From: Populus alba
Lineage: Eukaryota > Streptophyta > Magnoliopsida > Malpighiales > Salicaceae
NCBI RefSeq assembly: GCF_005239225.2
Contig: NC_133293.1
Span: 21,933,040-21,997,039, forward strand
DNA length: 64,000 nucleotides
Direction: 5' to 3'
The notes below the pieces were generated by a model. That model searched no databases. It was not told the DNA's origin and was given only the letters and a program-made list of their open reading frames with translations. This document shows positions 46,190 through 64,000 of this stretch, one piece after another (the stretch's first letter is position 1; each line of letters begins with the position of its first letter). Both the position numbers and the translations under genes were made by a program.

Positions 46190-46555
46190 TTTAGGGTTTA
46201 GGGTTTCGGTTTGGGTTTTTGGGTTTCGGGTTTGGGGTTGGGGTTTAGGGTTTAGGGTTTAGGGTTTCAGGGTTTAGGGTTTAGGGGTTCAGGGTTCAGG
46301 GTTTAGGGTTTAGGGTTTTAGGGTTTAGGGTTTGGGTTTAGGTTTAGGGTTTGGGTTTAGGGTTTATGGTTTAGGGTTTTAGGGTTTTAGGGTTTAGGGT
46401 TTCGGGTCTAGGGTTTCGGGTCTAGGGTTTAGGGTTTAGGGTCTAGGGTTTAGGGTTTGGGGTTTGGAGTTTGGGGTTTGGGGTTGGGGTTTGGGGTTTG
46501 GAGTTTCGGGTTTAGGGTTTAGGGTTTAGGGTTTTTTAGGGTTTAGGGTTTAGGG
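46190..46555 (+). repeat. Telomere-like tract 1, (TTTAGGG)n with variants
   Basis: About 365 bp consist of TTTAGGG mixed with TTTCGGG, TTTGGGG, TTTTAGGG and TTCAGGG variants. The G-rich strand reads left to right. The degeneracy shows an old interstitial or subtelomeric tract rather than fresh telomerase product. It forms the left border of the LINE/telomere-repeat region, and LINE A begins at once at its right end. Confidence 0.95.
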
Positions 46556-46797
46556 AGGGTTCAGGGAGGAGGAAAAAGAAAAATATGAGACGAGAGCAAC
46601 CACCCCTGGCGACTGTGAAGACGACACACTGCTGGCCTTATTCTAGTCACCGGTGACCACTTTTTTCCCTCTCCCACAGGTAATTGTCACTCCCATCATA
46701 CTCCCCTACATTACTACCGATCCACTTTTTTGTTCCCACCCCTACAACCTCTGTTTCACCGATATCTAGCATAACTTTTTTTTTTTTTTTTACCACA

Positions 46798-48141
46798 ATG
46801 AGTTCCCATAATCCCAAAACCAAGCCTGCCACCGCCACAACCAAATCAACCTCATAGGCAGATCAGGTTAGAGTCTCTGACTCTAGTACAAGATTCACCT
46901 TGGAGCCTTTATCTCGTCAACCAATAGGTCTAAGCCTTAAGATCACTGAAGAAATGCTTCTGGAAAATTCTGCACAATGGAATCGTTGCATGATTGGTTT
47001 TTTTCCTGGGTTTCGTATGCCTTTCCATGCAGTAAACTCAATTGCATCCAGGGCATGGCGTTCTTATGGTTTAGAGAATGTTATGACAACTTCTAATGGA
47101 TTCATCATCTTTCGGTTCACTACAGAGGATGAGATGCAAATAGTTTTAGAGAAAGGGCCATGAATGTTTGGAGGGAAGAATATCATCTTACAGCAATGGC
47201 ATCCAAGATTCCAGTTTGACAAGAACAAAATCTCAACACTACCAGTATGGATCCGCTTGCATGGTTTACCATTTCCCTTGTGGTCTAAACAAGGACTCAG
47301 CCTGGCAGCAAGTATGGTTGGGCGTCCACTTTCGTGTGATGAGCTCACATATGGATGTACTCGGCTGGAGTATGCACGATTATGTGTTGAAGTGGATGCT
47401 GCAATGCCTTTTGTCCACAGTTTTGATATAGACAGCCCCCTCTCCACTACACCAATTACTGTCACTGTTGAGTATGAGTGGAAGCCCCCACGGTGTGAAA
47501 AATGCAAAGTCTTTGGACATTCATGTGTAATCCAAGCTAAAACAACAGTTAAAGATGTTGCTGATCCAGCCACTACTGCCCCACAGACAGAGCCATTACA
47601 ACACACCCCTGCAATTGCAAACATTGTCCCTATCCTTCCCGCTACCAATACACCACATGAGCCAATCATTACCCATGCAAAAGTCTCCACAAAACCATCT
47701 ACTAGCCTCAAAACTACCCAACAGCCAGAGCTTAACCCATAAAAAATCATTACGGATCCTTACCTTTCAACCAGTGGAAAAAATGCAGCCACACCTACTG
47801 CTCAAGTTACCTCATCCAAAATGCATTTATCCATACCCCACTCCATGCCAGCAATCCCTGCAGATATTGATGACTGTGACTCTAGCCAGGATTCAGGTAA
47901 TGAACTTGGCCTTCAAACTCATCATTTTAATGATCTACATGCTACTCATTGTTTTGAAAGTAAGATGGACTCTCTCCATACTTCAAGAGCCACTTCCTCA
48001 ACTGCTCAGGAGTCTTCAGCTGAGGAATCTACATCCTCTATCCACCCAATTATCAACCATCTTCATTCCCCACCACCCACTCCAACTACTGTTAAGAAAA
48101 AGAAAGGGGGTAAGAAAAAAAAGGAGGCCCGGGGCCTTTAG
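46798..48141 (+). pseudogene. LINE A ORF1 (DUF4283-type nucleic-acid-binding protein), broken
   Basis: In the parent element this protein would bind the LINE RNA to form the RNP. One reading frame of 448 codons runs from the ATG to the stop at 48139, but is interrupted by TAG (46855-46857), TGA (47161-47163) and TAA (47740-47742). The first two stand where LINE C has Trp (SWAERV and GPWMFGG), so they are TGG-to-stop G-to-A changes. The DUF4283-like part has GRPLSCDE and WIRLHGLPFPLW. It ends in a zinc-knuckle-like RCEKCKVFGHSC, which lacks the normal spacing to the last Cys. A Lys-rich tail (KKKKGGKKKKEARGL) closes it. The two short open pieces between stops are not separate genes. Confidence 0.85.
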
Positions 48142-48174
48142 CTGTCAATTTCTTGTTCATTATATCATAAATAA

Positions 48175-51100
48175 ATGTTCATTATTGGTAGTTGGAACAT
48201 ATGGGGTCTAAATGGACTCCAAAAACAAAAAACCGTCCATGCATGGACACAAAAAAACAGTCTTGATATCTTTGGCATCCTTGAAACCAAAGTAAATGCT
48301 GCTCATTTAGCAGCTGTTCAAACCAATCTTGCACCCGCCTACTGGAACTACTACTCAAATACAGCCTCCAACTCAACTTGTCGAATCCTTGTTGGTTGGA
48401 ATACCCAAAAACTCAACCTTACTTGCCTCCACCAAGCACCTCAGTGGCTAACCTGTGAAGCCAACCATATTAGCCTCCCTCACCCCATTAAAATCACTTT
48501 CATATATGGTCATAACACACCAGCTGAAAGACACGACCTCTGGAATTATATAAAACAGGAGAGTTCCTTCAATTCCTGTGTTCCTTGGATTATTATAGGC
48601 GACTTCAATGCCATCATGCAAACAGGAGACAGAATTGGGGGGGATGCACACTGGCCAAGGCACCAAGATGATTTTGCAACATGTATCAGTCAATCCGAAC
48701 TCATGCAAGCTCCATCTACAGGTATTAAATACACATGGCACAATGGTCAACATGGTTGCAATACCATTCAAAAAAAATTAGACTGGGTATTTGGCAATTC
48801 CAGTATGTTCAATGCTTGGCCGGCCACACATGCAACATTTGAGCCTCGCAATATTTCTGATCACAGTGCCATTGTAGTTCGTCTTCACAACCTCAACAAG
48901 CAGCAACATTCTTCTTTCAAATTCTTGAACATATGGGCTGAACGTAGTGACTTCCTTGCTACTGTTGCTTCCTCTTGGCAAGAACCTGTATTTGGAAATC
49001 CTATGTTCCAATTCACTACTAAGCTGCGCCGGTTGAAGACTGTATTGAGGCAGCTTCACCTACATCACACAAGCAGCATCACACACAGAGTTACTAAGGC
49101 CAAAACAAATTGGGAAGCAGCACAATTTTATCTTGATCAACATCCAACATCATCTACTGCACAATCAACTGAACGAGAAATGGTTGCTCAATATATGCAA
49201 CTTTGTAAAGATGAGGAATCCTATTTCAAGCAAAAATCAAGGGTGCAATGGCTTCAGCTAGGAGATAGGAATACCTCATTTTTTTCACAAATCTTTGCTC
49301 CACGCCAGGTAAGGAAGAAAAAATACATAGCTTGCAGGATGAAAATGGAACTTTGGTCCACGATCCACATGACATAGGGAAGCTGGCATCAACATATTTT
49401 GAAAACATCCTCACAGCCACTCATCCAACATTGAATGCAGAGATTAAGGACATTTTTCCTAACACCATTTCAGAAGCATCCAAATCTGCAGCTCTTACAC
49501 CCATCACCGATGATGATATAAAGGAAGCTTTATTCTCTATTCCCGACTCTAAAGCTCCAGGGCCAGACGGTTATAAATGCACTCTTTTATAAAACAAGCT
49601 GGGACATCATCAGACTTGATTTTCTTGCTGCCATCAGATTCTTCTTCTCTAATAACTGTCTCCCTCGTTGTGTTAATGCTACAAGAGTAGCCCTTGTGCC
49701 AAAAACAGAACATCCAGCTAGTATGAATGATTATAGACCCATTTCTTGTTGCAATGTAATATACAAATGCATCTCAAAGTTGCTTGTTGTTCGACTAAAA
49801 CCAGCTCTAGTGGATGTGATTGGCCCCTCACAGTCTGCATTCCTTCCTGGCCGCAATATATCTGATGCTATTCTTCTTGCACAAGAGCTAATGCACAATT
49901 ATCATCACAACAAAGGGCCAGCCCGATGTGCTCTCAAAGTCGATTTGAAGAAAGCTTTTGACACTGTTAGCTTGGATTTCATCATTGAAGGACTGCATGC
50001 TATTAGCCTCCCAACAGACATGATAAGATGGATAACAACATGCATTACAACAGTCCATTATACAATCAATATCAATGGTGAGATGCACGGTTTTTTTCAA
50101 GCTACAAGAGGCATTAGACAGGGTGATCCACTATCACCTTACCTCTTTGTTTTGGCAATGGAAGGCTTGCGAGGAATCATCAATCAATCTGTCCAAAGCA
50201 GTGCATTCAAATACCATTGGCGGTGCAAGCCAACCAAACTAACTCATATTTGTTTTGCAGATGATTTAATGCTTTTCAGTCATGCTGATCCCGGTTCCAT
50301 CATGGTACTCAAGTCCAGCCTAGACAGGTTCTCCACACTCTCAGGGCTCTCCATTAATCTTGCCAAAAGTTCTCTCTATTTGTCAGGTATTATCAGCGGT
50401 TTGCGCAACACAATAATAGAGCAACTAGGCATACAGGAAACAACTCTTCCTGTGAAGTATCTAGGCGTCCCTCTCTTATCTTCACGGCTCACCCACAGAG
50501 ATTGTCTCCCATTGCTGGAAAGAATTATAGCGAGAATAAAGTTGTGGACATCCTCCTCCCTCACTTATGCTGGCCGATTACAATTGATCAAGTCGGTTCT
50601 CTTCTCAATTCAAGTATATTGGTCCACCATCTTCATACTCCCATGTGCAACAATTAAAAGGATAGAAAGCACCTTGGCTGCCTTCTTATGGAAAGGCTCA
50701 TCTCTCACTCCCACGGGAGCAAAGGTGGCCTGGAATGCTATTTGTTACCCACTGACTGAAGGAGGATTGAGAATCAAAAAACTAAAAACATGGAATCAGG
50801 CAGCAACTCTAAAGCATATATGGCATCTCTTCACAGATAAAGAATCCATGTGGTCAACATGGATACAAGCAAACCTCTTACGTGGCAAATCTTTTTGGCA
50901 AGTCACAATGCCATCGAATCCATCTTGGTCATGGAGAAAAATACTGCAAAGCCGAGACTGGTGCAGAGGCTGGTTCATCAACAGAATAGGGAATGGCAAC
51001 TCCACTTCACTCTGGTTTGATTACTGGCTTCCTGGGGGATTAAGGCTTATCGACAACTATTCACTACGAACTCTCACAGCTACAGGTCTAATGTGGAATG

Positions 51101-51840
51101 CAAGGGTATCAAATATCATCAATGCAGGGCAATAGGACTTTCCAATGGACGTAACTGCACTGCATGGCTGTTGGGAATCAATTAATTTTCATCCCAAACC
51201 ATATTCAGAAGACTACTGTGACTGGAAGGGCAATCCATCAGGGCTCTTCAACATAAAATCAGCATGGGAATTACTTCGGGAAAAACGACCATCAAACAAC
51301 ATGCATCAACTACTATGGTTCAAAGGCCACATCCCACGGCAATCCTTCATCCTCTGGCTAGCAAGTCTCGAAAGGTTGAGAACCATGGACCGTCTTTATT
51401 CAGCTGGCATCATTCAGAATACTGCATGTAGCTTTTGTGGAACCCATATCGAAACACATGACCATCTGTTCTTTGAATGCCATACCTCTCAAACAGTATG
51501 GCAAACAATTAATGCAAGGGCAAACGTCTAGTGGCCATGCACTTCTTGGCAGAATCTGCTACAATGGGCATCTGCAACTTATGGCAATAAGATAGATGTT
51601 AAACATCTTATAGCTTGCCTCTTACTTTCAGCAACTGTCTACCAGCTATGGTATGAACGAAACAATCGAATCTTCAGCAACCAGTTCCAAGTAGCCACAA
51701 CAATTGCAGAGACAGTGTTTCAACAGGTTCGCATGCACATAACATCTATGGAGTTTCGTACCATAATCCTAACCAGTATATGTGCTGTATGGGGTATTCG
51801 GCAACCTCACCAAAACCTAGTCCCAGTTGCAGACAGTTGA
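48175..51840 (+). pseudogene. LINE A ORF2 (endonuclease, reverse transcriptase, zf-RVT), broken
   Basis: ORF2 nicks target DNA and copies the LINE RNA at the nick. The APE-type endonuclease is complete: GSWNIWGLNG, GILETK, IYGHNTPAE, IIIGDFNAIM, KLDWVFGN and ISDHSAI. The reverse transcriptase has APGPDGY, NDYRPISCCN, CALKVDLKKAFD, RQGDPLSPYLF and the catalytic FADD (HICFADDLMLF, near 50250). A zf-RVT-like zinc region follows (GHIPRQSFILWLA ... CSFCG ... HDHLFFEC). Breaks are one-base frameshifts near 49285-49315 and 49575, TAG at 51133 (Trp in LINE B) and TAG at 51529 (Tyr in LINE B). The duplicated copy at 53020-56179 lacks the first two frameshifts. Confidence 0.92.
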
Positions 51841-52099
51841 AGAAACATATAACACTGTTCATCGCAAATTAATTCCATCACTACTGTTCACGTAGCGGCT
51901 GGCAACCATGAGATCAATTGTTTTTACATGGCTACTGTTCACGTAGCGGCCATGCATCAGTTCTTCGTTATTTTCATTCTTTTCGCTATTTCTTTGCTGT
52001 TTAATGGTCACTATTAATTTATTTTCTTGGGGGATGCCCCTCGTATTTCTGTAAGCAACATTTCTTCTTTATATATACATCTTAACTTTCCAAAAAAAA

Positions 52100-52378
52100 G
52101 TTTAGGGTTTAGGGTTTAGGGTTTCGGGTTTAAGGTTTTAGGGTTTCGGGTTTAGGGTTTTGGGTTTAGGGTTTGGGTTTTAGGGTTTGGGGTTTAGGGT
52201 TTGGGTTTTAGGGTTTTAGGGTTTGGGGTTTAGGGTTTTAGGGTTTAGGGTTTAGGGTTTCGGGTTTAGGGTTTAGGGTTTCGGGTTTAGGGTTTAGGGT
52301 TTCGGGTTTAGGGTTTAGGTTTTAGGGTTTTAGGGTTTAGGGTTTTAGGGGTTTAAGGTTTAGGGTTTAGGGTTTAGG
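52100..52378 (+). repeat. Telomere-like tract 2
   Basis: TTTAGGG repeats with TTTCGGG, TTTGGGG and TTTTAGGG variants start directly after the LINE A poly(A) tail (AAAAAAAAG-TTTAGGG) and end at TTTAGG where a 5'-truncated LINE B begins (CCTCACAGG). The tract is nearly the same as tract 3 because of the tandem duplication. Confidence 0.95.
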
Positions 52379-53018
52379 CCTCACAGGTCTGCATTCTTCT
52401 TCTCAATGGTTGACTTGTGAGGTCACACAAACAAACTCCTCTCTCCCTATCAGACTCACCTTCATTTATGGCCACAACACTCCAGCTGAACGACAGATTC
52501 TATGGAATTATATTGTTCATGAAAGCTCGCTTAATTCTGGACTCCCATGGCTCGTTTTGGGTGACTTTAATGCAATAATGTCTGCGGGGGATAGAGTTGG
52601 AGGAGATGTTCATTGGCCTAGTTACCAGAATGACTTTAGCTCTTGTATAAATCACTTTGAATTGTTGCAAGTTCCATTCACGGGTCTCCAGTATTCTTGG
52701 CATAATGGCCAGATTGGTAGCAATACCATTCAAAAGAAGCTAGATTGGGTTTTTGGTAATTCATGTTTGTTTTCTACTTGGCCTGCCACCAATGCCATAT
52801 TCCAACCACGTAGCATTTCGGATCACAGTGCCATAATACTCAGTCCTCAACGGCCAAACCAGCATAGGCATAATTCATTCAAATTTTTGAACATCTGGGC
52901 TGATCGTGGTGACTTCCTAGACATTGTTGCTTCCTCCTGGCAGCTTCCTAGTACTGGCAATCCTATGTACCAACTTACAACAAAGCTGAGTAGGTTAAAG
53001 GCAGAATTAAGGAAGCTT
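52379..53018 (+). mobile_element. LINE B fragment (5' truncated, joined to LINE A)
   Basis: This is the endonuclease part of a LINE B ORF2, starting at LTGLHSSSQWLTCE. It lacks ORF1 and about the first 80 codons of ORF2. It is almost identical to 56473-57112. Motifs GDFNAIM, KLDWVFGN and ISDHSAI are kept. At 53018/53020 the sequence jumps from LINE B to LINE A, giving a chimeric open frame of nearly 600 codons that runs to 54191. Confidence 0.9.
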
Positions 53019-53019
53019 A

Positions 53020-56000
53020 GTAGTGACTTCCTTGCTACTGTTGCTTCCTCTTGGCAAGAACCTGTATTTGGAAATCCTATGTTCCAATTCACTACTAAGC
53101 TGCGCCGGTTGAAGACTGTATTGAGGCAGCTTCACCTACATCACACAAGCAGCATCACACACAGAGTTGCTAAGGCCAAAACAAATTGGGAAGCAGCACA
53201 ATTTTATCTTGATCAACATCCAACATCATCTACTGCACAATCAACTGAACGAGAAATGGTTGCTCAATATATGCAACTTTGTAAAGATGAGGAATCCTAT
53301 TTCAAGCAAAAATCAAGGGTGCAATGGCTTCAGCTAGGAGATAGGAATACCTCATTTTTTCACAAATCTTTGCTCCACCGCCAGGTAAGGAACAAAATAC
53401 ATAGCTTGCAGGATGAAAATGGAACTTTGGTCCACGATCCACATGACATAGGGAAGCTGGCATCAACATATTTTGAAAACATCCTCACAGCCACTCATCC
53501 AACATTGAATGCAGAGATTAAGGACATTTTTCCTAACACCATTTCAGAAGCATCCAAATCTGCAGCTCTTACACCCATCACCGATGATGATATAAAGGAA
53601 GCTTTATTCTCTATTCCCGACTCTAAAGCTCCAGGGCCAGACGGTTATAATGCACTCTTTTATAAAACAAGCTGGGACATCATCAGACTTGATTTTCTTG
53701 CTGCCATCAGATTCTTCTTCTCTAATAACTGTCTCCCTCGTTGTGTTAATGCTACAAGAGTAGCCCTTGTGCCAAAAACAGAACATCCAGCTAGTATGAA
53801 TGATTATAGACCCATTTCTTGTTGCAATGTAATATACAAATGCATCTCAAAGTTGCTTGTTGTTCGACTAAAACCAGCTCTAGTGGATGTGATTGGCCCC
53901 TCACAGTCTGCATTCCTTCCTGGCCGCAATATATCTGATGCTATTCTTCTTGCACAAGAGCTAATGCACAATTATCATCACAACAAAGGGCCAGCCCGAT
54001 GTGCTCTCAAAGTCGATTTGAAGAAAGCTTTTGACACTGTTAGCTTGGATTTCATCATTGAAGGACTGCATGCTATTAGCCTCCCAACAGACATGATAAG
54101 ATGGATAACAACATGCATTACAACAGTCCATTATACAATCAATATCAATGGTGAGATGCACGGTTTTTTTCAAAGCTACAAGAGGCATTAGACAGGGTGA
54201 TCCACTATCACCTTACCTCTTTGTTTTGGCAATGGAAGGCTTGCGAGGAATCATCAATCAATCTGTCCAAAGCAGTGCATTCAAATACCATTGGCGGTGC
54301 AAGCCAACCAAACTAACTCATATTTGTTTTGCAGATGATTTAATGCTTTTCAGTCATGCTGATCCCGGTTCCATCATGGTACTCAAGTCCAGCCTAGACA
54401 GGTTCTCCACACTCTCAGGGCTCTCCATTAATCTTGCCAAAAGTTCTCTCTATTTGTCAGGTATTATCAGCGGTTTGCGCAACACAATAATAGAGCAACT
54501 AGGCATACAGGAAACAACTCTTCCTGTGAAGTATCTAGGCGTCCCTCTCTTATCTTCACGGCTCACCCACAGAGATTGTCTCCCCATTGCTGGAAAGAAT
54601 TATAGCGAGAATAAAGTTGTGGACATCCTCCTCCCTCACTTATGCTGGCCGATTACAATTGATCAAGTCGGTTCTCTTCTCAATTCAAGTATATTGGTCC
54701 ACCATCTTCATACTCCCATGTGCAACAATTAAAAGGATAGAAAGCACCTTGGCTGCCTTCTTATGGAAAGGCTCATCTCTCACTCCCACGGGAGCAAAGG
54801 TGGCCTGGAATGCTATTTGTTACCCACTGACTGAAGGAGGATTGAGAATCAAAAAACTAAAAACATGGAATCAGGCAGCAACTCTAAAGCATATATGGCA
54901 TCTCTTCACAGATAAAGAATCCATGTGGTCAACATGGATACAAGCAAACCTCTTACGTGGCAAATCTTTTTGGCAAGTCACAATGCCATCGAATCCATCT
55001 TGGTCATGGAGAAAAATACTGCAAAGCCGAGACTGGTGCAGAGGCTGGTTCATCAACAGAATAGGGAATGGCAACTCCACTTCACTCTGGTTTGATTACT
55101 GGCTTCCTGGGGGATTAAGGCTTATCGACAACTATTCACTACGAACTCTCACAGCTACAGGTCTAATGTGGAATGCAAGGGTATCAGATATCATCAATGC
55201 AGGGCAATAGGACTTTCCAATGGACGTAACTGCACTGCATGGCTGTTGGGAATCAATTAATTTTCATCCCAAAACCATATTCAGAAGAGACTACTGTGAC
55301 TGGAAGGGCAATCCATCAGGGGCTCTTCAACATAAAATCAGCATGGGAATTACTTCGGGAAAAACGACCATCAAACAACATGCATCAACTACTATGGTTC
55401 AAAGGCCACATCCCACGGCAATCCTTCATCCTCTGGCTAGCAAGTCTCGAAAGGTTGAGAACCATGGACCGTCTTTATTCAGCTGGCATCATTCAGAATA
55501 CTGCATGTAGCTTTTGTGGAACCCATATCGAAACACATGACCATCTGTTTCTTTGAATGCCATACCTCTCAAACAGTATGGCAAACAATTAATGCAAGGG
55601 CAAACGTCTAGTGGCCATGCACTTCTTGGCAGAATCTGCTACAATGGGCATCTGCAACTTATGGCAATAAGATAGATGTTAAACATCTTATAGCTTGCCT
55701 CTTACTTTCAGCAACTGTCTACCAGCTATGGTATGAACGAAACAATCGAATCTTCAGCAACCAGTTCCAAGTAGCCACAACAATTGCAGAGACAGTGTTT
55801 CAACAGGTTCGCATGCACATAACATCTATGGAGTTTCGTACCATAATCCTAACCAGTATATGTGCTGTATGGGGTATTCGGCAACCTCACCAAAACCTAG
55901 TCCCAGTTGCAGACAGTTGAAGAAACATATAACACTGTTCATCGCAAATTAATTCCATCACTACTGTTCACGTAGCGGCTGGCAACCATGAGATCAATTG

Positions 56001-56179
56001 TTTTTACATGGCTACTGTTCACGTAGCGGCCATGCATCAGTTCTTCGTTATTTTCATTCTTTTCGCTATTTCTTTGCTGTTTAATGGTCACTATTAATTT
56101 ATTTTCTTGGGGGATGCCCCTCGTATTTCTGTAAGCAACATTTCTTCTTTATATATACATCTTAACTTTCCAAAAAAAA
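53020..56179 (+). mobile_element. LINE A 3' copy (second unit of the tandem duplication)
   Basis: This stretch repeats 48944-52099 almost base for base and carries the same two TAG stops (near 55208 and 55604). It is intact where copy 1 is frameshifted (53360-53395, 53650) but has its own one-base insertions near 54173, 54583, 55272, 55321 and 55549, plus a 2-base one near 55288. It encodes the same reverse transcriptase (FADD near 54334) and zinc region. It ends in the same poly(A) tail and passes into tract 3. Neither copy has an open ORF2. Confidence 0.92.
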
Positions 56180-56472
56180 GTTTAGGGTTTAGGGTTTAGG
56201 GTTTCGGGTTTAAGGTTTTAGGGTTTCGGGTTTAGGGTTTTGGGTTTAGGGTTTGGGTTTTAGGGTTTGGGGTTTAGGGTTTGGGTTTTAGGGTTTTAGG
56301 GTTTGGGGTTTAGGGTTTTAGGGTTTAGGGTTTAGGGTTTCGGGTTTAGGGTTTAGGGTTTCGGGTTTAGGGTTTCGGGTTTAGGGTTTAGGGTTTCGGG
56401 TTTAGGGTTTAGGTTTTAGGGTTTTAGGGTTTAGGGTTTTAGAGGTTTAAGGTTTAGGGTTTAGGGTTTAGG
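56180..56472 (+). repeat. Telomere-like tract 3
   Basis: This is the duplicate of tract 2, about 14 bp longer through one extra TTTAGGG/TTTCGGG pair, with a few base changes. It runs from the LINE A copy's poly(A) tail to the 5'-truncated start of LINE B. Confidence 0.95.
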
Positions 56473-59400
56473 CCTCACAGGTCTGCATTCTTCTTCTCAA
56501 TGGTTGACTTGTGAGGTCACACAAACAAACTCCTCTCTCCCTATCAGACTCACCTTCATTTATGGCCACAACACTCCAGCTGAACGACAGATTCTATGGA
56601 ATTATATTGTTCATGAAAGCTCGCTTAATTCTGGACTCCCATGGCTCGTTTTGGGTGACTTTAATGCAATAATGTCTGCGGGGGATAGAGTTGGAGGAGA
56701 TGTTCATTGGCCTAGTTACCAGAATGACTTTAGCTCTTGTATAAATCACTTTGAATTGTTGCAAGTTCCATTCACGGGTCTCCAGTATTCTTGGCATAAT
56801 GGCCAGATTGGTAGCAATACCATTCAAAAGAAGCTAGATTGGGTTTTTGGTAATTCATGTTTGTTTTCTACTTGGCCTGCCACCAATGCCATATTCCAAC
56901 CACGTAGCATTTCGGATCACAGTGCCATAATACTCAGTCCTCAACGGCCAAACCAGCATAGGCATAATTCATTCAAATTTTTGAACATCTGGGCTGATCG
57001 TGGTGACTTCCTAAACATTGTTGCTTCCTCCTGGCAGCTTCCTAGTACTGGCAATCCTATGTACCAACTTACAACAAAGCTGAGTAGGTTAAAGGCAGAA
57101 TTAAGGAAGCTTCATTACAGGGTTACAAGTAATCTTACAGACTGTGTTGGCCAAGCTAAGTCAGCATGGGATGCAGCGCAGCTCTACCTTGATGAGCATC
57201 CATCATCAGATGAAGCAAAAAATACAGAGAGAACTCTTGCCACTGAATACCATCACCTCTGCAAAGCTGAAGAATCATATTTTAAGCAAAAGTCTAGGAT
57301 TCAATGGTTGCATCTCGGTGATCGAAATACTGCATTCTTCCACAAATCCTTACTGCATCGTCAAGTAAGGAATAGGATACACAGTTTACAAGATGAAGCA
57401 GGCAACATTGTTCATGATCCGCAGGAGTTAGGGAAGATTGCATCTGATTATTTTGAACACTTACTCTCTGCTCCCCAACCAATGTTGACAGAGAGTTGAC
57501 AACATTTTTTTGAACACAATATCAGACTCCTCCAAAGCTTCAGCTGTCGCTCCCATTACCAATGAAGATATTAAGGCAGCCTTATTTTCTATACCTGATA
57601 ATAAATCCCCCGGCCCTGATGGTTATAACGCATTATTTTTCAAGAAAAGCTGGGAGATCATCAAGGATGATTTCACTGCAGCAATCAGGTACTTTTTCAA
57701 CAAAAATTCTCTGCCCCGATGTGTCAATGCTACAAGAGTTGCTCTTGTACCAAAAAAGGAACACCCACAATGCTTAAATGACTACAGACCGATTTCATGC
57801 TGCACTGTACTCTATAAATGCATAGCTAAGCTGATTGTTGTTCGATTAAAGACAGCCCTCACTGATGTGGTTGGCCCTTCACAGACAGCCTTTATTCCTG
57901 GCCGAAACATATCAGATGCAATTTTGCTAACACAGGAGCTCATGCATAATTACCATCAGAATAAAGGGCCACCAAGATGTGCTCTCAAAATCGACTTGAA
58001 GAAGGCCTTTGACACGGTCCGGTGGGAATATATCATTGCTGGACTTCATGCGATTTCTCTTCCCCAAGAACTCATTGGCTGGATTACTACATGCATCTCT
58101 ACTGTTCATTACACAATTAATATTAATGGGGAGATGCATGGATTCTTTAAAGCTACAAGAGGAATCCGACAGGGTGATCCTCTATCACCTTACCTCTTTG
58201 TATTGGCAATGGAAGGACTGAGTGGTATCCTGAGCAATTCAATCCAGGAGAGCTCATTTCACTATCATTGGCGATGTCAGCCAAACAAACTAACTCACCT
58301 CTGTTTTGCAGATGATCTCATGCTTTTTTGCCGAGCTGACATTGATTCCATTCAGGTCTTGAAGCGCAGCCTAGACAATTTTTCCCAGCTCTCGGGTCTA
58401 CACATTAACCTGGACAAAAGCTCACTATATTTGTCAGGTATTGATGCAAACCGGAGAAGCACAATAGTTGGCATGCTAGGCATACAGAAAGCTACCCTCC
58501 CAGTGCGGTATCTTGGAGTTCCACTGATATCAACTCGTCTCACTCACACAGACTGCATTCCTTTAATGGAGCGTATTATAGCTAGAATCAAGCTGTGGAC
58601 GTCTACATCACTCACCTATGCTGGTCGGCTGCAATTGATCAAATCAGTCCTTTTTTCTATCCAAGTATACTGGTCTTCTATATTCATTCTTCCTAGTGCT
58701 ACAATTAAAAAAATTGAACGCACACTGACAGCCTTCTTGTGGAGAGGCACATCACTATCTCATGCAGGTGCAAAGGTGGCATGGCATGCAATCTGTTACC
58801 CGTTGAATGAAGGAGGCTTGGGCATCAAAAAACTCAAACACTGGAACCAGGCTGCAACTATTAAACATATATGGCATCTTCTCGCAGATAGAAACTCAAT
58901 ATGGGCTGCTTGGATACACACCATTCTACTGCGTGGGAGATCTTTCTGGCAAGTCAAAATGCCATCCAACCCTACTTGGTCTTGGAGAAAAATTCTGCAG
59001 AGCCGAGAGTGGTGTAGAGGCTGGTTCATTCCCATCATAGGCAATGGTTCTTCAACGTTTTTATGGTATGATTACTGGTTACCGATGGGGCGTCGGCTCA
59101 TTGATGCTTATACTCTTAGATCATTGACTGCCACAAGCCTTCCTTGGAATGCTACAGTTTCAGATATCATTGTAGAGGGGCAGTGGAATTTTCCCACGGA
59201 CACACCTATATTGCAGAACAACTGGAACTCAATTGTGTTCAACCCAAAGCCGTGGTTAGAAGATACTTATATGTGGAAGGGCCACTCTTCAGGGAAGTTC
59301 AGCATTGCCTCAGCTTGGGAACTTCTTCGTGATAAAAGGCCACTCAATAACCTGCATAAACTACTATGGTTTAGTGGTCATATCCCTAGACAATCCTTCA

Positions 59401-59873
59401 TTCTTTGGCTTGCAGGAATTGGACGTCTGCGAACAATGGATCGTCTCCAAACAGTCGGGATAATAAGGAATGCAACATGCATATTATGTAGCTGTCATAT
59501 AGAGACACATGATCATTTATTTTTTGCTTGTCCAATTACAAAAACAGTTTGGGAAACAGTCAATGAAAGAGCCAATATATACTGGCCTTGCACCTCCTGG
59601 CAGAATCTTCTACAATGGGCTTCAGCAACTTACACGAAGAAGAACGACATTCAGCACACAATAGCAAGATTAATGCTATCAGCTACAGTTTACTTACTTT
59701 GGCAGAAACGCAACAAAAGAGTCTTTAACAACCACTTTCAATCAACCACAACAATGGTAGAAGAAGTTTTTCAACTAGTTCGAACAACCATATCGACCAT
59801 GAAGTTTAAGGACATCATTCCTATAACTATATGCCATATATGGGGTATCATGGATTTACATCATAGAGCTTAA
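56473..59873 (+). pseudogene. LINE B ORF2, truncated, with one frameshift
   Basis: The reading frame holds the rest of the endonuclease (GDFNAIM, KLDWVFGN, ISDHSAI) up to PMLTES, where a frameshift near 57480-57510 moves it to another frame. From about 57510 it stays open for 787 codons to the stop at 59871. That long frame has the full reverse transcriptase: SPGPDGY, NDYRPISCCT, CALKIDLKKAFD, RQGDPLSPYLF, LCFADDLMLF and LGVPLIS. The zf-RVT region follows (GHIPRQSFILWLA, CILCSCHIETHDHLFFAC). No stop lies inside the transcriptase. The missing N-terminus and ORF1 make it non-autonomous. Confidence 0.92.
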
Positions 59874-59959
59874 TTACAAGCCACTGTTCCTGTAGAAGCC
59901 ATGCAAGTTATGTTGGTTTGCTCAGCCGTCTGAAATGGAGCCGCCTTGGCCTTTTCACT

Positions 59960-60095
59960 TTTGTTTTCATTTTATTTATGCTACTCTGTCTATTATTTTT
60001 TTAATCTCTCTTGGGGTATACCCCTCGTAATTCTGTAGAGAATTCTTTTTTTTTTTTTTATATATATATCTTACATTCTTCCAAAAAAAAAAAAA
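59960..60095 (+). other. LINE B 3' end with palindrome-like element and poly(A)
   Basis: CTTGGGGTATACCCCTCGTA (60011-60030) contains the perfect palindrome GGGGTATACCCC. LINE A has the matching CTTGGGGGATGCCCCTCGTA (52027-52046, and in copy 2 at 56107-56126), with the stem kept although bases differ. About 50 bp later both elements end in TTCC/TTTCC plus poly(A). This looks like a 3' structure read by the element's own reverse transcriptase, which is inference. Confidence 0.55.
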
Positions 60096-60237
60096 GTTTA
60101 GGGTTTAGGGTTTTAGGGGTTTAGGGTTTAGGGTTTAGGGTTTCGGGTTTCGGGTTTAGGGTTTAGGGTTTAGGGTTTAGGGTTTAGGGTTTAGGGGTTA
60201 GGGGTTAGGGTTTAGGGTTTAGGGTTTAGGGTTTAGG
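60096..60237 (+). repeat. Telomere-like tract 4
   Basis: About 140 bp, the most regular of the four tracts: mostly perfect TTTAGGG with a few TTTCGGG and TTAGGGG variants. It starts directly after LINE B poly(A) and ends at TTTAGG where the LINE C leader begins. Confidence 0.95.
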
Positions 60238-60490
60238 TTAGTGAGAGAAGCTCTGAAACTGGAGACTAGAGAGTGGTTGTGCTGCCGGAGCAATACCCAC
60301 TCCGGCCACCGTTGGATCCTCTCCATTTTCTGATATGTTGTGTGACTGAACCATTGCTACAAACGGACTATTTGGATCTTTGAAATATTTCACCATTCGA
60401 GATTTCTATTTGTTCAAAGTTCTGTTTGTTCTTTTCCTTTTTCCTTCGTCGCCGCTACCCCTGTTCTTCTTGTTCTTATTTTGATTATCC

Positions 60491-61675
60491 ATGGCCTCCA
60501 TTGGTCGTCCTCCACCTTCAAGACTATCAAACCATCAACCATGTCCCCCCCAGCCACCCACACCTCAACAAAAATCAAACAACCCCCCCTTTTCAAATAC
60601 CAACACGCACTACAAAACCCCTCCCCCCCATTTTGGCTCCTGGGCAGAGAGAGTCAGAGTTACTGACACTTCCACTAGGTTCTCCTTGGACCCCATCCCT
60701 AGGCAGGAGGTTGGAGCTCGCCTCAGGATCCCTGCAGAGCTATTATCCGAATCTGCTGACAAATGGAATAGGTGCATGGTTGGCTTCTCCCCGGGCTTCA
60801 AAATGAATTACCATACGATCAACACTATAGCAATCAGAGCTTGGAAGCATTATGGGCTAGAGGATGTGATGACCACAGCTGATGGATTTATGATATTCAG
60901 ATTCAATACCGTGGAGGACATGCTTGGAGTGCTGGAGAAAGGGCCCTGGATGTTTGGGGGCAAAGCCATAATCCTGCAACAATGGCACCCTCATCTTGTT
61001 CTTGATAAAAATAAGATCAATAAGCTTCCGGTATGGATATGCTTGCATGGTCTGCCTTTCCCTCTCTGGTCCAAGTCTGGATTAAGCCTATCTGCTAGCA
61101 TGGTTGGTCGACCATTATCGTGTGATGAGCAAACTTTCAACAACACCCGGCTAGACTTTGCAAGGGTGTGCGTGGAGATTGATGCTGCACTCCCCCTTAT
61201 CCATCAGTTCGAAATCGAAACCCCATTATCGACAGAACCTATCCTGATAAAAGTGGAATATGAGTGGAAGCCCTCTCGGTGCAACAAATGCTGCTTGTTT
61301 GGCCATGTCTGCCCCGAACCTATCATGACAGAGCCAGCGATTCCAGAGACCATACCAACTGAAACCTTACCCCTCAATCTACCAGCTGATGCTGGGAACG
61401 ACGGTTGCACTGTTGCAATGGGGACACATACATCTCCACAAGAGAATACCATATCAGTTGAAGATGGCAACATCACCGAAGAGGTCCAATATACTATTGC
61501 AGCTGGGAAAAACAAGGCAAGAGCATCCGGCCTCAATGGCCCCCTACACACGCAACCTCCCAAGCAAACTGATAGCAGAAAGGGCATACCCAAGAAACCA
61601 ATGGAAGAGATGCACATCGTGCCATTTAGTAGCAAGCACGACATTGTTGAAAGCAATTTGGATAGTGAGAGATGA
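60491..61675 (+). CDS. LINE C ORF1, DUF4283-type RNA-binding protein
   Basis: This protein would coat the LINE RNA. The ATG opens a Pro-rich N-terminus, then WAERVRVTDTSTRFSLDPI and the DUF4283-like part with FMIFRFNTVEDM, GPWMFGGKAI, WICLHGLPFPLW and MVGRPLSCDE. A zinc-knuckle-like RCNKCCLFGHVC lies near residue 265. The frame stops at 61673. Just after, in another frame (to 61859), sequence like the LINE A ORF1 tail continues (FDRCVESKM, then a basic RKKKRGRS end). So the 394-codon frame has probably lost its C-terminal ~60 residues through a frameshift near 61650-61680. The Trp codons that are stops in LINE A are intact here. Confidence 0.88.
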   Translation: MASIGRPPPSRLSNHQPCPPQPPTPQQKSNNPPFSNTNTHYKTPPPHFGSWAERVRVTDTSTRFSLDPIPRQEVGARLRIPAELLSESADKWNRCMVGFSPGFKMNYHTINTIAIRAWKHYGLEDVMTTADGFMIFRFNTVEDMLGVLEKGPWMFGGKAIILQQWHPHLVLDKNKINKLPVWICLHGLPFPLWSKSGLSLSASMVGRPLSCDEQTFNNTRLDFARVCVEIDAALPLIHQFEIETPLSTEPILIKVEYEWKPSRCNKCCLFGHVCPEPIMTEPAIPETIPTETLPLNLPADAGNDGCTVAMGTHTSPQENTISVEDGNITEEVQYTIAAGKNKARASGLNGPLHTQPPKQTDSRKGIPKKPMEEMHIVPFSSKHDIVESNLDSER

Positions 61676-61930
61676 GGGGGAGACAAACAATGATCCAGTT
61701 CATGACTACCAATTGATTGAGGACAACCAGTTACTCATAACTGGTTTTGACCGATGTGTAGAGAGCAAAATGGCAACCCTGATAAGCACTAGTGAAGCCT
61801 CATCTTCAGCTGATGCTCCTTCCCTCGTGACAAGGAAAAAAAAAAGGGGAAGAAGCTGAAAAAGGCTAAAGGCCTTTAATGCTTCTGCTATGCTAGGTTA
61901 GTTTCTGTTTTTCCGCATTAAATAAAATTT

Positions 61931-64000
61931 ATGTTTAAGGTAGGCTGCTGGAATATATGGGGTCTGAATAACCCTAAAAAACACAGAATTATCTCTGATT
62001 GGGCTCACAATTCCAAGCTAGGAATAATGGGTCTGCTTGAAACAAAAATTGCCCCTTCTAATTTTGATTCGGTTATTGCTGGCCTTAATTTGCATTCTTG
62101 GAGTTTTGTTTCAAATGCAAATGCTTCTCCTACCTGTCGTATTTTGGTAGGGTGGGATACAAAGATGGTGACAATTTCTTGCTTGCACTACTCTGACCAG
62201 TGGGTCACTTGTGAAGCTACATCCCTTGCCACGAACGAAACCTCTAGATTCACCTTTGTATATGGCCATAATACACCGGCAGGGAGAGGCTTAATATGGG
62301 AGTATATAGTGCAGCATGCTCCGCAATTCTCTTCATCCCCATGGGCACTCATGGGTGATTTCAATGCCACTATTCAGCCTTCGGATAGGTCAGGTGGAAA
62401 TCTGCATTGGAATGGGCATCATGAAGACTTTGGCCGTTGCATTCATGAAGCTGAACTTATTCATGTTCCATATTCAGGGCTGAAATTCTCCTGGCATAAC
62501 GGTCAGGCAGGAAGATACACTATAATGAGGAAGCTAGATTGGATATTCTGCAACCCGGCTTTCCTTAACACTTGGCCAGCAGTGCACTCTAGGTTCCTCC
62601 CTAGAGATGCATCAGATCATAGTGCAATGATCCTTGACTTCAGCCATCACAGACCTCAGGGTCCATCCCCGTTTAAATTCCTTAACTTGTGGGCAGACAG
62701 AGATGATTTTATGGATTTAGTGAGAGCAGTTTGACAGCCCCCCATCAGTGGCAACCCCATGTACCGCCTCACAGCTAAGCTTCGGCTTATAAAGCATGCC
62801 TGCAAGTCCCTCCACAGACAGCATACGAGTCATATCTCCCGTAGGGTTGCTGAAGCCAAATCTTGTTGGATCTCTGCTCAGGTTGCTCTGGATGAAACCC
62901 CAGGTTCTGTTGAGCTTATGTCCGCAGAAAGAAATCATGCCCGAATATACTCTCAGTTATGTAAGGAAGAAGAGGCTTTCTACAAGCAGCGGTCTAGAAT
63001 CCAGTGGTTGAGTCTTGGGGATAGAAATACCAAGTTCTTTCATAGATCCCTAGTCCATAGGCAGTCCAGGAATAGGGTTCATGGGTTGACTGACGAAGTA
63101 GGGAACCAAGTGACTACTAACAAGGAGATGGGGCAACTAGCAGTGGCATACTACCAGAACATCCTAGCAGCCCCCCCTCATGAATATCACGAGGATGTAT
63201 CACGGCTTTATACATCCAAGATCCCTCCCACATCGGTTTCTAGCCTTATCCAGCCAGTCACCTTAGAAGAAATCAAAAGGGCCCTGTTTTCAATCCCAGA
63301 TGATAAGGCCCCGGGGCCAGATGGATTTACCTCCTATTTCTTTAAAAAATGCTGGGGGATTGTTGGAGCAGATTTCATTAATGCAATTAGGTCGTTCTTT
63401 GATCGCAGCACCCTCCCAAGAGGTATCAATGCAACTACAATAGCCTTGGTGCCGAAGGTTGAGAACCCTGCAAACATGGATGATTATCGGCCAATATCTT
63501 GCTGCATGTAATCTATAAATGCATATCCAAGATCATGGCTGCCAGATTGAAGACCATCCTTGCTGATATTGTTAACCCTGCCCAATCTGCTTTTGTCCCA
63601 GGGAGGCAGATTTCGGATAACATTTTGTTGACTCAGGAGCTGATGCACAATTATCATTTGGATAGAGGACCTGCTAGATGTGCCCTGAAAGTGGATTTGA
63701 GAAAGGCGTTTGACACAATCAGTTGGGATTTCATAATTAAGGGGTTGAAAGCTATAGGGATCCCAGACTGCATGGTTGGATGGATTAAGGCTTGTATATC
63801 CTCGGCTACTTTCTCTATTAGCCTTAATGGAGAGCTTCATGGGTTTTTCCCTTCCAGCAGGGGGCTGCGTCAAGGTGATCCCCTCTCCCCTTATCTATTT
63901 GTTCTTGGTATGGAAGGATTAGGGGGTCTTCTTAAGATAGCTTCAATGGACTCACGGTTCAGATTCCATTGGCGGTGCAAACAGAATGCTATCACTCATC
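61931..64000 (+). pseudogene. LINE C ORF2, with one stop and one frameshift, partial
   Basis: The ATG precedes GCWNIWGLNNPKK, the start of the endonuclease, which is complete: GLLETK, VYGHNTPAG, LMGDFNATI, KLDWIFCN and ASDHSAM. TGA at 62732 replaces the Trp of the SSWQ motif in LINEs A and B. The frame continues to PISCCM, where one A is missing (near 63507) relative to LINE A. Past it the other frame carries QSAFVPGRQISDN, CALKVDLRKAFDT and RQGDPLSPYLF up to the window end, just before FADD would be expected. Confidence 0.9.

Follow-up and report, generated by a model that had tools for sequence, protein, structure and literature searches.

The window analysed here, the terminal 64 kb of Populus alba contig C10 (21,997,039 bases), ends in an array of long interspersed nuclear elements (LINEs) set among telomere-type TTTAGGG tracts. 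The assembly comprises 416 Mb in 96 contigs, of which C1 to C19 measure 13 to 55 Mb each and the other contigs examined (C20, C21, C22, and C96) 35 to 45 kb. Across the final 18 kb of the window, the order is tract T1, LINE A, tract T2, a chimera of LINEs B and A, tract T3, LINE B, tract T4, and LINE C (Table 1). As the initial annotation had described, LINEs A, B, and C all lie on the plus strand, with TTTAGGG-type tracts alone between them and no further DNA. The tracts are degenerate, with exact TTTAGGG units accounting for 21/52 in T1, 17/39 in T2, 18/40 in T3, and 13/20 in T4. At the 3′ junctions, LINE A passes into the repeat as A8 joined to GTTTAGGG and LINE B as A13 joined to GTTTAGGG. 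On the 5′ side, the boundary of LINE A carries an uncertainty of a few bases, and the truncated LINE B directly adjoins a tract. LINE C is incomplete at its 3′ side because the window ends with the contig. Neither (TTTAGGG)2 nor (CCCTAAA)2 occurs in positions 1-46100 of the window; the adjacency of LINEs and tracts is therefore not due to chance, an explanation also ruled out by the genome-wide flank counts given below.

Table 1. Tracts and elements of the C10 array, with related elements elsewhere in the genome (positions lacking a contig label are those of the window)
Feature	Position	Strand	Basis or remark
Tract T1, degenerate TTTAGGG array on inner side of LINE A	46190..46555	+	Tandem Repeats Finder
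LINE A, full length, frames broken	46556..52099	+	ORF1 piece, endonuclease, RT, 3′ UTR, poly(A)
LINE A, ORF1 piece	47164-47742	+	DUF4283
LINE A, endonuclease	48175-49377	+	
LINE A, RT	49522-51135	+	
Tract T2, between LINE A and duplicated unit	52100..52378	+	Tandem Repeats Finder
B/A chimera	52379..56179	+	LINE B 5′ part (52379-53018) joined to LINE A 3′ part (~53020-56179)
Tract T3, duplicate of T2	56180..56472	+	Tandem Repeats Finder, alignment to T2
LINE B, 5′ end cut inside endonuclease	56473..60095	+	RT and zf-RVT in frame 57489-59873
Tract T4, between LINE B and LINE C	60096..60237	+	Tandem Repeats Finder
LINE C, 5′ end complete (AGTGAGAGAAGC...)	60238..64000	+	runs off contig end
LINE C, ORF1	60485-61675	+	DUF4283
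LINE C, endonuclease	61922-62734	+	
LINE C, RT pieces	62735-63511, 63484-63999	+	
Two SINE-like elements	C1:54838083-54838330 and 54838337-54838573	+	in TTTAGGG tracts, poly(A) adjoins repeat
Copies >200 kb from an end	C9 0.46-0.49 Mb (5); C11 0.81 Mb from its end (2); C19 1.11 Mb		
Copies >200 kb from an end	C8 1.81 Mb from its end; C15 4.9 Mb (3); C11 4.98 Mb		
Copy >200 kb from an end	C4 14.5 Mb (1)		12 stops
Abbreviations: ORF, open reading frame; RT, reverse transcriptase; UTR, untranslated region; SINE, short interspersed nuclear element.

The window elements are plant L1-type LINEs, with an ORF1 bearing DUF4283, an ORF2 that combines an apurinic/apyrimidinic (AP)-type endonuclease with RT, and a poly(A) end. 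Their Pfam domains are DUF4283 (ORF1), Exo_endo_phos, RVT_1, and zf-RVT; Exo_endo_phos is matched in LINE A and LINE C, and weakly in the 5′-truncated LINE B. A sequence search of the LINE A endonuclease part against solved structures returned three weak matches (best E 0.57), and LINE B ORF2 matches a Populus alba protein at 100% identity across 83% of the ORF2 length.

The B/A chimera matches LINE A 3′ sequence in 3149 of 3164 aligned columns and LINE B 5′ sequence in 639 of 640, while T3 agrees with T2 in 278 of 293. Chimera and tract are evidently the product of either a recent tandem duplication of ~4.08 kb or an assembly duplication. Since the LINE A 3′ part, the tract, and the LINE B 5′ part are repeated near-identically, the insertions in the window number three (A, B, and C), and four independent insertions are ruled out. 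Thus, the array first described stands as three independent insertions, and the unit between A and B falls away as a duplication. Insertion into one tract followed by amplification, offered initially as an alternative, explains this duplication and nothing beyond it.

A genome-wide search with LINE B ORF2, in which 57 of 2656 first-look candidates were scored, yielded two groups of matches, namely 32 copies at 54-100% identity and 25 at 42-44%. The copy list is a lower bound, from which the B/A chimera and, at C1 37-41 kb, a copy of the C type are missing. Toward chromosome ends, the assembly is marred by indel noise and runs of N, and all counts are to be read as lower bounds. The 42-44% group, referred to below as Celine-like, served as the control.

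The 3′ motif of the telomeric family (CCCCTCGTA...ATCTTA...A6) gives 48 matches at 24 distinct 3′ ends, compared with 3 matches for the reversed pattern. At 23 of these 24 ends (22 of 23 without the duplicate), TTTAGGG lies within 25 bases past the A run. The pattern used to detect the adjoining TTTAGGG gave 22 matches when reversed versus 62 forward; chance matches are therefore included, and only those overlapping the motif 3′ ends were counted. The control string, the 3′ end of the Celine-like group taken from one copy flanked by ordinary DNA, occurs 613 times on both strands, and TTTAGGG follows within 25 bases in none of them (Fisher's test, 22/23 vs 0/613, p 8e-40). The 100 control places listed form dense clusters, on both strands, at C1 20.8-21.7 Mb and C3 6.7-8.3 Mb, which are probably centromeres. 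A telomeric-repeat flank is thus carried by nearly all family 3′ ends with the motif in this one genome. The initial annotation had proposed that these LINEs may target, or be retained in, telomeric repeats and had named, beforehand, copies lying mostly in unrelated DNA as the contrary outcome of a genome-wide flank survey; that outcome was not found in the 3′ flanks, which were surveyed genome-wide, and the proposal is supported. Readings of 5′ flanks cover three chromosome ends, the right end of C10 and the two ends of C1, and one further 5′ start was seen.

The two groups also differ in position. The median distance to a chromosome end is 129 kb for the 32 copies versus 7.45 Mb for the 25 control copies (Mann-Whitney p 1.3e-9). 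Eighteen of the 32 are found less than 200 kb from an end, each with its 3′ end toward the terminus.

The junctions share a preferred phase. A phase-free junction pattern gave 40 matches at 26 distinct junctions, one of them SINE-like and ten not tied to a LINE body; A(n) is joined to GTTTAGGG in 23 of the 26, and the reversed pattern gave none. Further junctions were added by eye (C1 36.4 kb, an ORF1-only element, the second SINE-like element, C19, C9 485 kb, and two on C8). With the duplicate dropped, 25 of 32 independent junctions have this phase (p 9e-16 vs 1/7), and there is accordingly one preferred insertion point within the telomeric repeat. All 15 junctions in sequences that were read directly have one sense, with 0 in the opposite sense.

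Both ends of C1 resemble the C10 end in layout. The left end harbors three LINEs and the 5′ start of a fourth (before an N stretch) on the minus strand within CCCTAAA tracts, and the right end two LINEs and the two SINE-like elements on the plus strand within TTTAGGG tracts. One of the two right-end LINEs, at C1:54844660-54846212, is a 1.55-kb derivative that matches ORF1 but not ORF2, and it too lies between telomeric tracts. At the left end of C2, a 2.5-kb TTTAGGG-type array is found at 53-55 kb between N stretches, with a LINE-like piece at 7.5-8.3 kb, and the left end of C3 has one LINE piece beside N stretches; the LINE flanks at these two ends are unreadable because of the N stretches. 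The resident LINEs are ~63-75% identical pairwise (aligned stretches >150 bases, duplication excluded), the most alike pair being LINE C and a C1-left element (83%). They therefore represent different lineages and not one event copied. The tracts range from mostly canonical (44/51 units on C15, 34/41 on C8) to decayed (11/52 on C1 right, 0/18 in the final 137 bases of C1), as expected of insertions of differing age. Of note, at the left end of C1, the LINE read farthest inward (~47.6-49.5 kb) adjoins unrelated repeat-like sequence within ORF1, possibly a later insertion.

These plant L1-type LINEs very probably have telomeric (TTTAGGG)n DNA as their specific insertion target. Since poly(A) is joined to GTTTAGGG, reverse transcription would have started on the C-rich strand after CTAAAC, and the shared phase argues strongly for a fixed cut point in the repeat. 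In the proposed mechanism, the AP-type endonuclease makes a nick at CTAAAC^CC in the C-rich telomere strand, whose freed 3′ end then primes reverse transcription of the LINE RNA from its poly(A) end. The other strand would then be cut and the LINE 5′ end joined within the same array, giving A(n) followed by GTTTAGGG with the LINE 3′ end toward the chromosome terminus. The orientation of the junctions fits such internal target-primed reverse transcription into the array; addition at the chromosome 3′ end would give the opposite orientation. Repeated insertion, together with telomere renewal beyond each element, could build the alternating LINE and tract arrays at chromosome ends, in which older tracts would decay and local duplication would reshuffle the order. 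Several ORF2 frames in the 32-copy group are open, without stops, and the clade may therefore be active now or have been so recently. Location, 3′ flanks, phase, orientation, and the multiplicity of lineages are direct observations; from the sequence, we infer endonuclease cleavage as the cause, the order of the steps, and recent activity.

Several observations weigh against this interpretation. Seven of the 32 junctions are out of phase (C1 30.35 kb, two on C6, the second SINE-like element, C19, C9 485 kb, and the first on C8), and at three others poly(A) runs into CCCTAAA in the opposite sense (C7 2.09 Mb, C13 6.6 kb, and C19 21.6 Mb), although the one on C13 could be a misread telomere repeat. 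The motif 3′ end at C15:1739040 is the sole one without TTTAGGG and has no ORF2 match nearby; it may be a chance match because the reversed motif also gave 3 matches. Target-site duplications are indistinguishable inside repeat tracts. With all 32 copies considered, 22 point toward the nearer end, and 14 lie more than 200 kb from an end, at up to 8.8 Mb. The 3′ flanks of six of these 14 were sampled, of which one read N and all five readable ones are poly(A) followed by a TTTAGGG tract.

That the LINEs bring TTTAGGG units along as part of their own end, either as a 3′ tail or as a 5′ promoter array, is unlikely and was disfavoured here, although the initial annotation had raised it. Such carriage has a precedent in MoTeR1, which has TTCGGG(TTTGGG)n at its end (PMC7367193), and it would suit the copies assembled far from ends (C19 1.1 Mb, C8, C15, C11, and C9), which also show poly(A) and then TTTAGGG. 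However, the TTTAGGG stands after the poly(A) tail, LINE B still has a tract on its 5′ side despite being truncated inside the endonuclease, and tract lengths and variant make-up differ. In addition, most copies sit at chromosome ends and share the strand sense of the telomere there, and the same flank occurs on two SINE-like elements.

Insertion anywhere, with survival confined to regions near ends where selection or recombination removes copies least, would by itself fit the near-end position. It is very improbable, since it fails to predict a telomeric repeat right after poly(A) in 23/24 ends or one phase in 25/32 junctions, and the Celine-like LINE of the same genome scores 0/613. Still less credit is due to a scenario in which a chance insertion into telomeric repeats, or a few such insertions, spread by recombination between chromosome ends. 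The window does hold a tandem duplication of LINE and tract, and breakage at interstitial telomeres reshuffles MoTeR arrays (PMC7367193), but the residents are distinct lineages (~63-75% alike) whose order differs among the three ends, and the tract variants differ. An assembly artefact, in which telomeric and LINE reads were collapsed or misjoined, can practically be dismissed: the assembly shows indel noise, masked stretches, and internal telomere-like arrays, but the same junction recurs on many contigs with diverged elements, and a misjoin would not select one phase.

Telomere-specific LINEs or other retroelements are already known from silkworm, fungus, and alga. Head-to-tail LINE arrays at chromosome ends are likewise formed by HeT-A, TART, and TAHRE of Drosophila, which constitute the telomere itself and whose 3′ ends face inward on attachment. 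In contrast, the poplar LINEs have the 3′ end outward, as do 18/18 copies within 200 kb of an end, and telomeric repeats persist. SART1 and TRAS1 belong to the R1 clade. Both are silkworm LINEs that possess an AP-type endonuclease and insert at a single point of the telomeric repeat, and the poly(A) of SART1 is joined in the G-rich strand sense, as in poplar (PMC7265360). SART1 and TRAS1 target TTAGG and cut between TT and AGG (PMC7265360); the poplar LINEs do not share this insertion point, having A(n) joined to GTTTAGGG, and differ further in their ORF1 with DUF4283 of the plant L1 type.

Telomere-associated retroelements listed in 2023 are SART/TRAS, GilM/GilT, Zepp1, MoTeR1, Tx1-1_ACar, and Athena (PMC10088271). 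Zepp of Chlorella, the one Viridiplantae case named there, is a LINE in the telomeric region like those of poplar, but its host is a green alga and not a land plant (PMC10088271). Tx1-1_ACar of the anole lizard is inserted in telomeric repeats (PMC10088271); both it and Zepp are likened to the poplar LINEs by description only. MoTeR1 of the rice blast fungus resembles them in forming retroelement arrays with telomeric tracts between and local rearrangement, but is credited with a putative restriction-like endonuclease and ends in a telomere-like run of its own (PMC7367193), whereas the poplar LINEs harbor Exo_endo_phos in place of a restriction-like enzyme.

Celine is, like the telomeric LINEs, a plant L1-type element of Populus with a strong position preference (PMC11288735). 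However, Celine is centromeric (PMC11288735), and in ORF2 the Celine-like group reaches 42-44% identity, with 0/613 TTTAGGG flanks; the 32 copies, at their median of 129 kb from an end, are not centromeric. The open ORF2 frames of the Celine-like group reach 1254 codons, compared with 3,765 bp for Celine, and a chromosome 11 position also matches (PMC11288735). The group is presumably Celine.

An RT tree of 114 rows, made in a short search with the Shimodaira–Hasegawa-like approximate likelihood ratio test as sole support measure and composed without SART, TRAS, or Celine-like control rows, places the four telomeric copies that cover enough of the RT domain in one 64-row clade (support 100). 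Also in this clade are all 16 Populus-labelled rows, a single protein from Salix viminalis, and 43 rows lacking an organism name. The four copies occupy two well separated branches, which suggests that telomere targeting may be as old as the common ancestor of both.

The two SINE-like elements at the right end of C1 are alike in 193 of 243 aligned columns. One junction is exactly in phase and the other out of phase. Their 3′ string has three occurrences in the genome, two of which are the known pair, and the reversed string has one. A tRNA scan of the C1 right-end stretch holding both elements found no gene; they are presumed to be SINEs from their length, poly(A), and box-like stretches. They may use the LINE machinery, with two elements being too few for a claim.

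Within the open-licence literature, subscription papers and preprints being outside its scope, the titles and excerpts searched contained no land-plant LINE targeting telomeres. Likewise, the excerpts of the P. ussuriensis telomere-to-telomere paper, the Celine paper (PMC11288735), the SART1 and MoTeR papers, reviews, and other plant genome papers report no telomeric LINE in a land plant. If the proposed targeting is true, this would be the first land-plant LINE clade to target telomeric repeats, as far as the literature search reaches. Telomere targeting would then have originated among plant L1-type elements, and in the same genus in which Celine prefers centromeres, and the clade would make it testable how an endonuclease of the AP type comes to recognise a repeat target. 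It also raises the question of whether telomerase is the sole builder of telomeres in long-lived trees, and telomeric LINE insertion may explain interstitial telomere tracts near poplar chromosome ends. A broader and more tentative picture, rather unlikely as one joint claim, is that the Salicaceae (poplar and willow) possess an old, diversified clade of telomere-specialised LINEs with a SINE sharing the site, such that poplar chromosome ends would combine telomerase repeats with LINE arrays that add to or buffer end length. The flank data behind this picture cover this one genome, and the trees concerned are long-lived.

For the LINE clusters away from chromosome ends, scaffold misjoins and genuine interstitial arrays are both conceivable. 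At C19:1110850-1111449, the tract after the LINE spans at least 458 bases and is mostly canonical with indel noise, resembling a terminal telomere 1.1 Mb inside the scaffold. At C15 4.91-4.96 Mb, telomeric LINE arrays on the plus strand face others on the minus strand, as would result from the fusion of two telomeres or from two misjoined contig ends. At C8:18488564-18489163, a LINE end is followed by a short tract and then a minimal second end (TTTAC and seven A) running into TTTAGGG, as if left by a nearly wholly truncated insertion.

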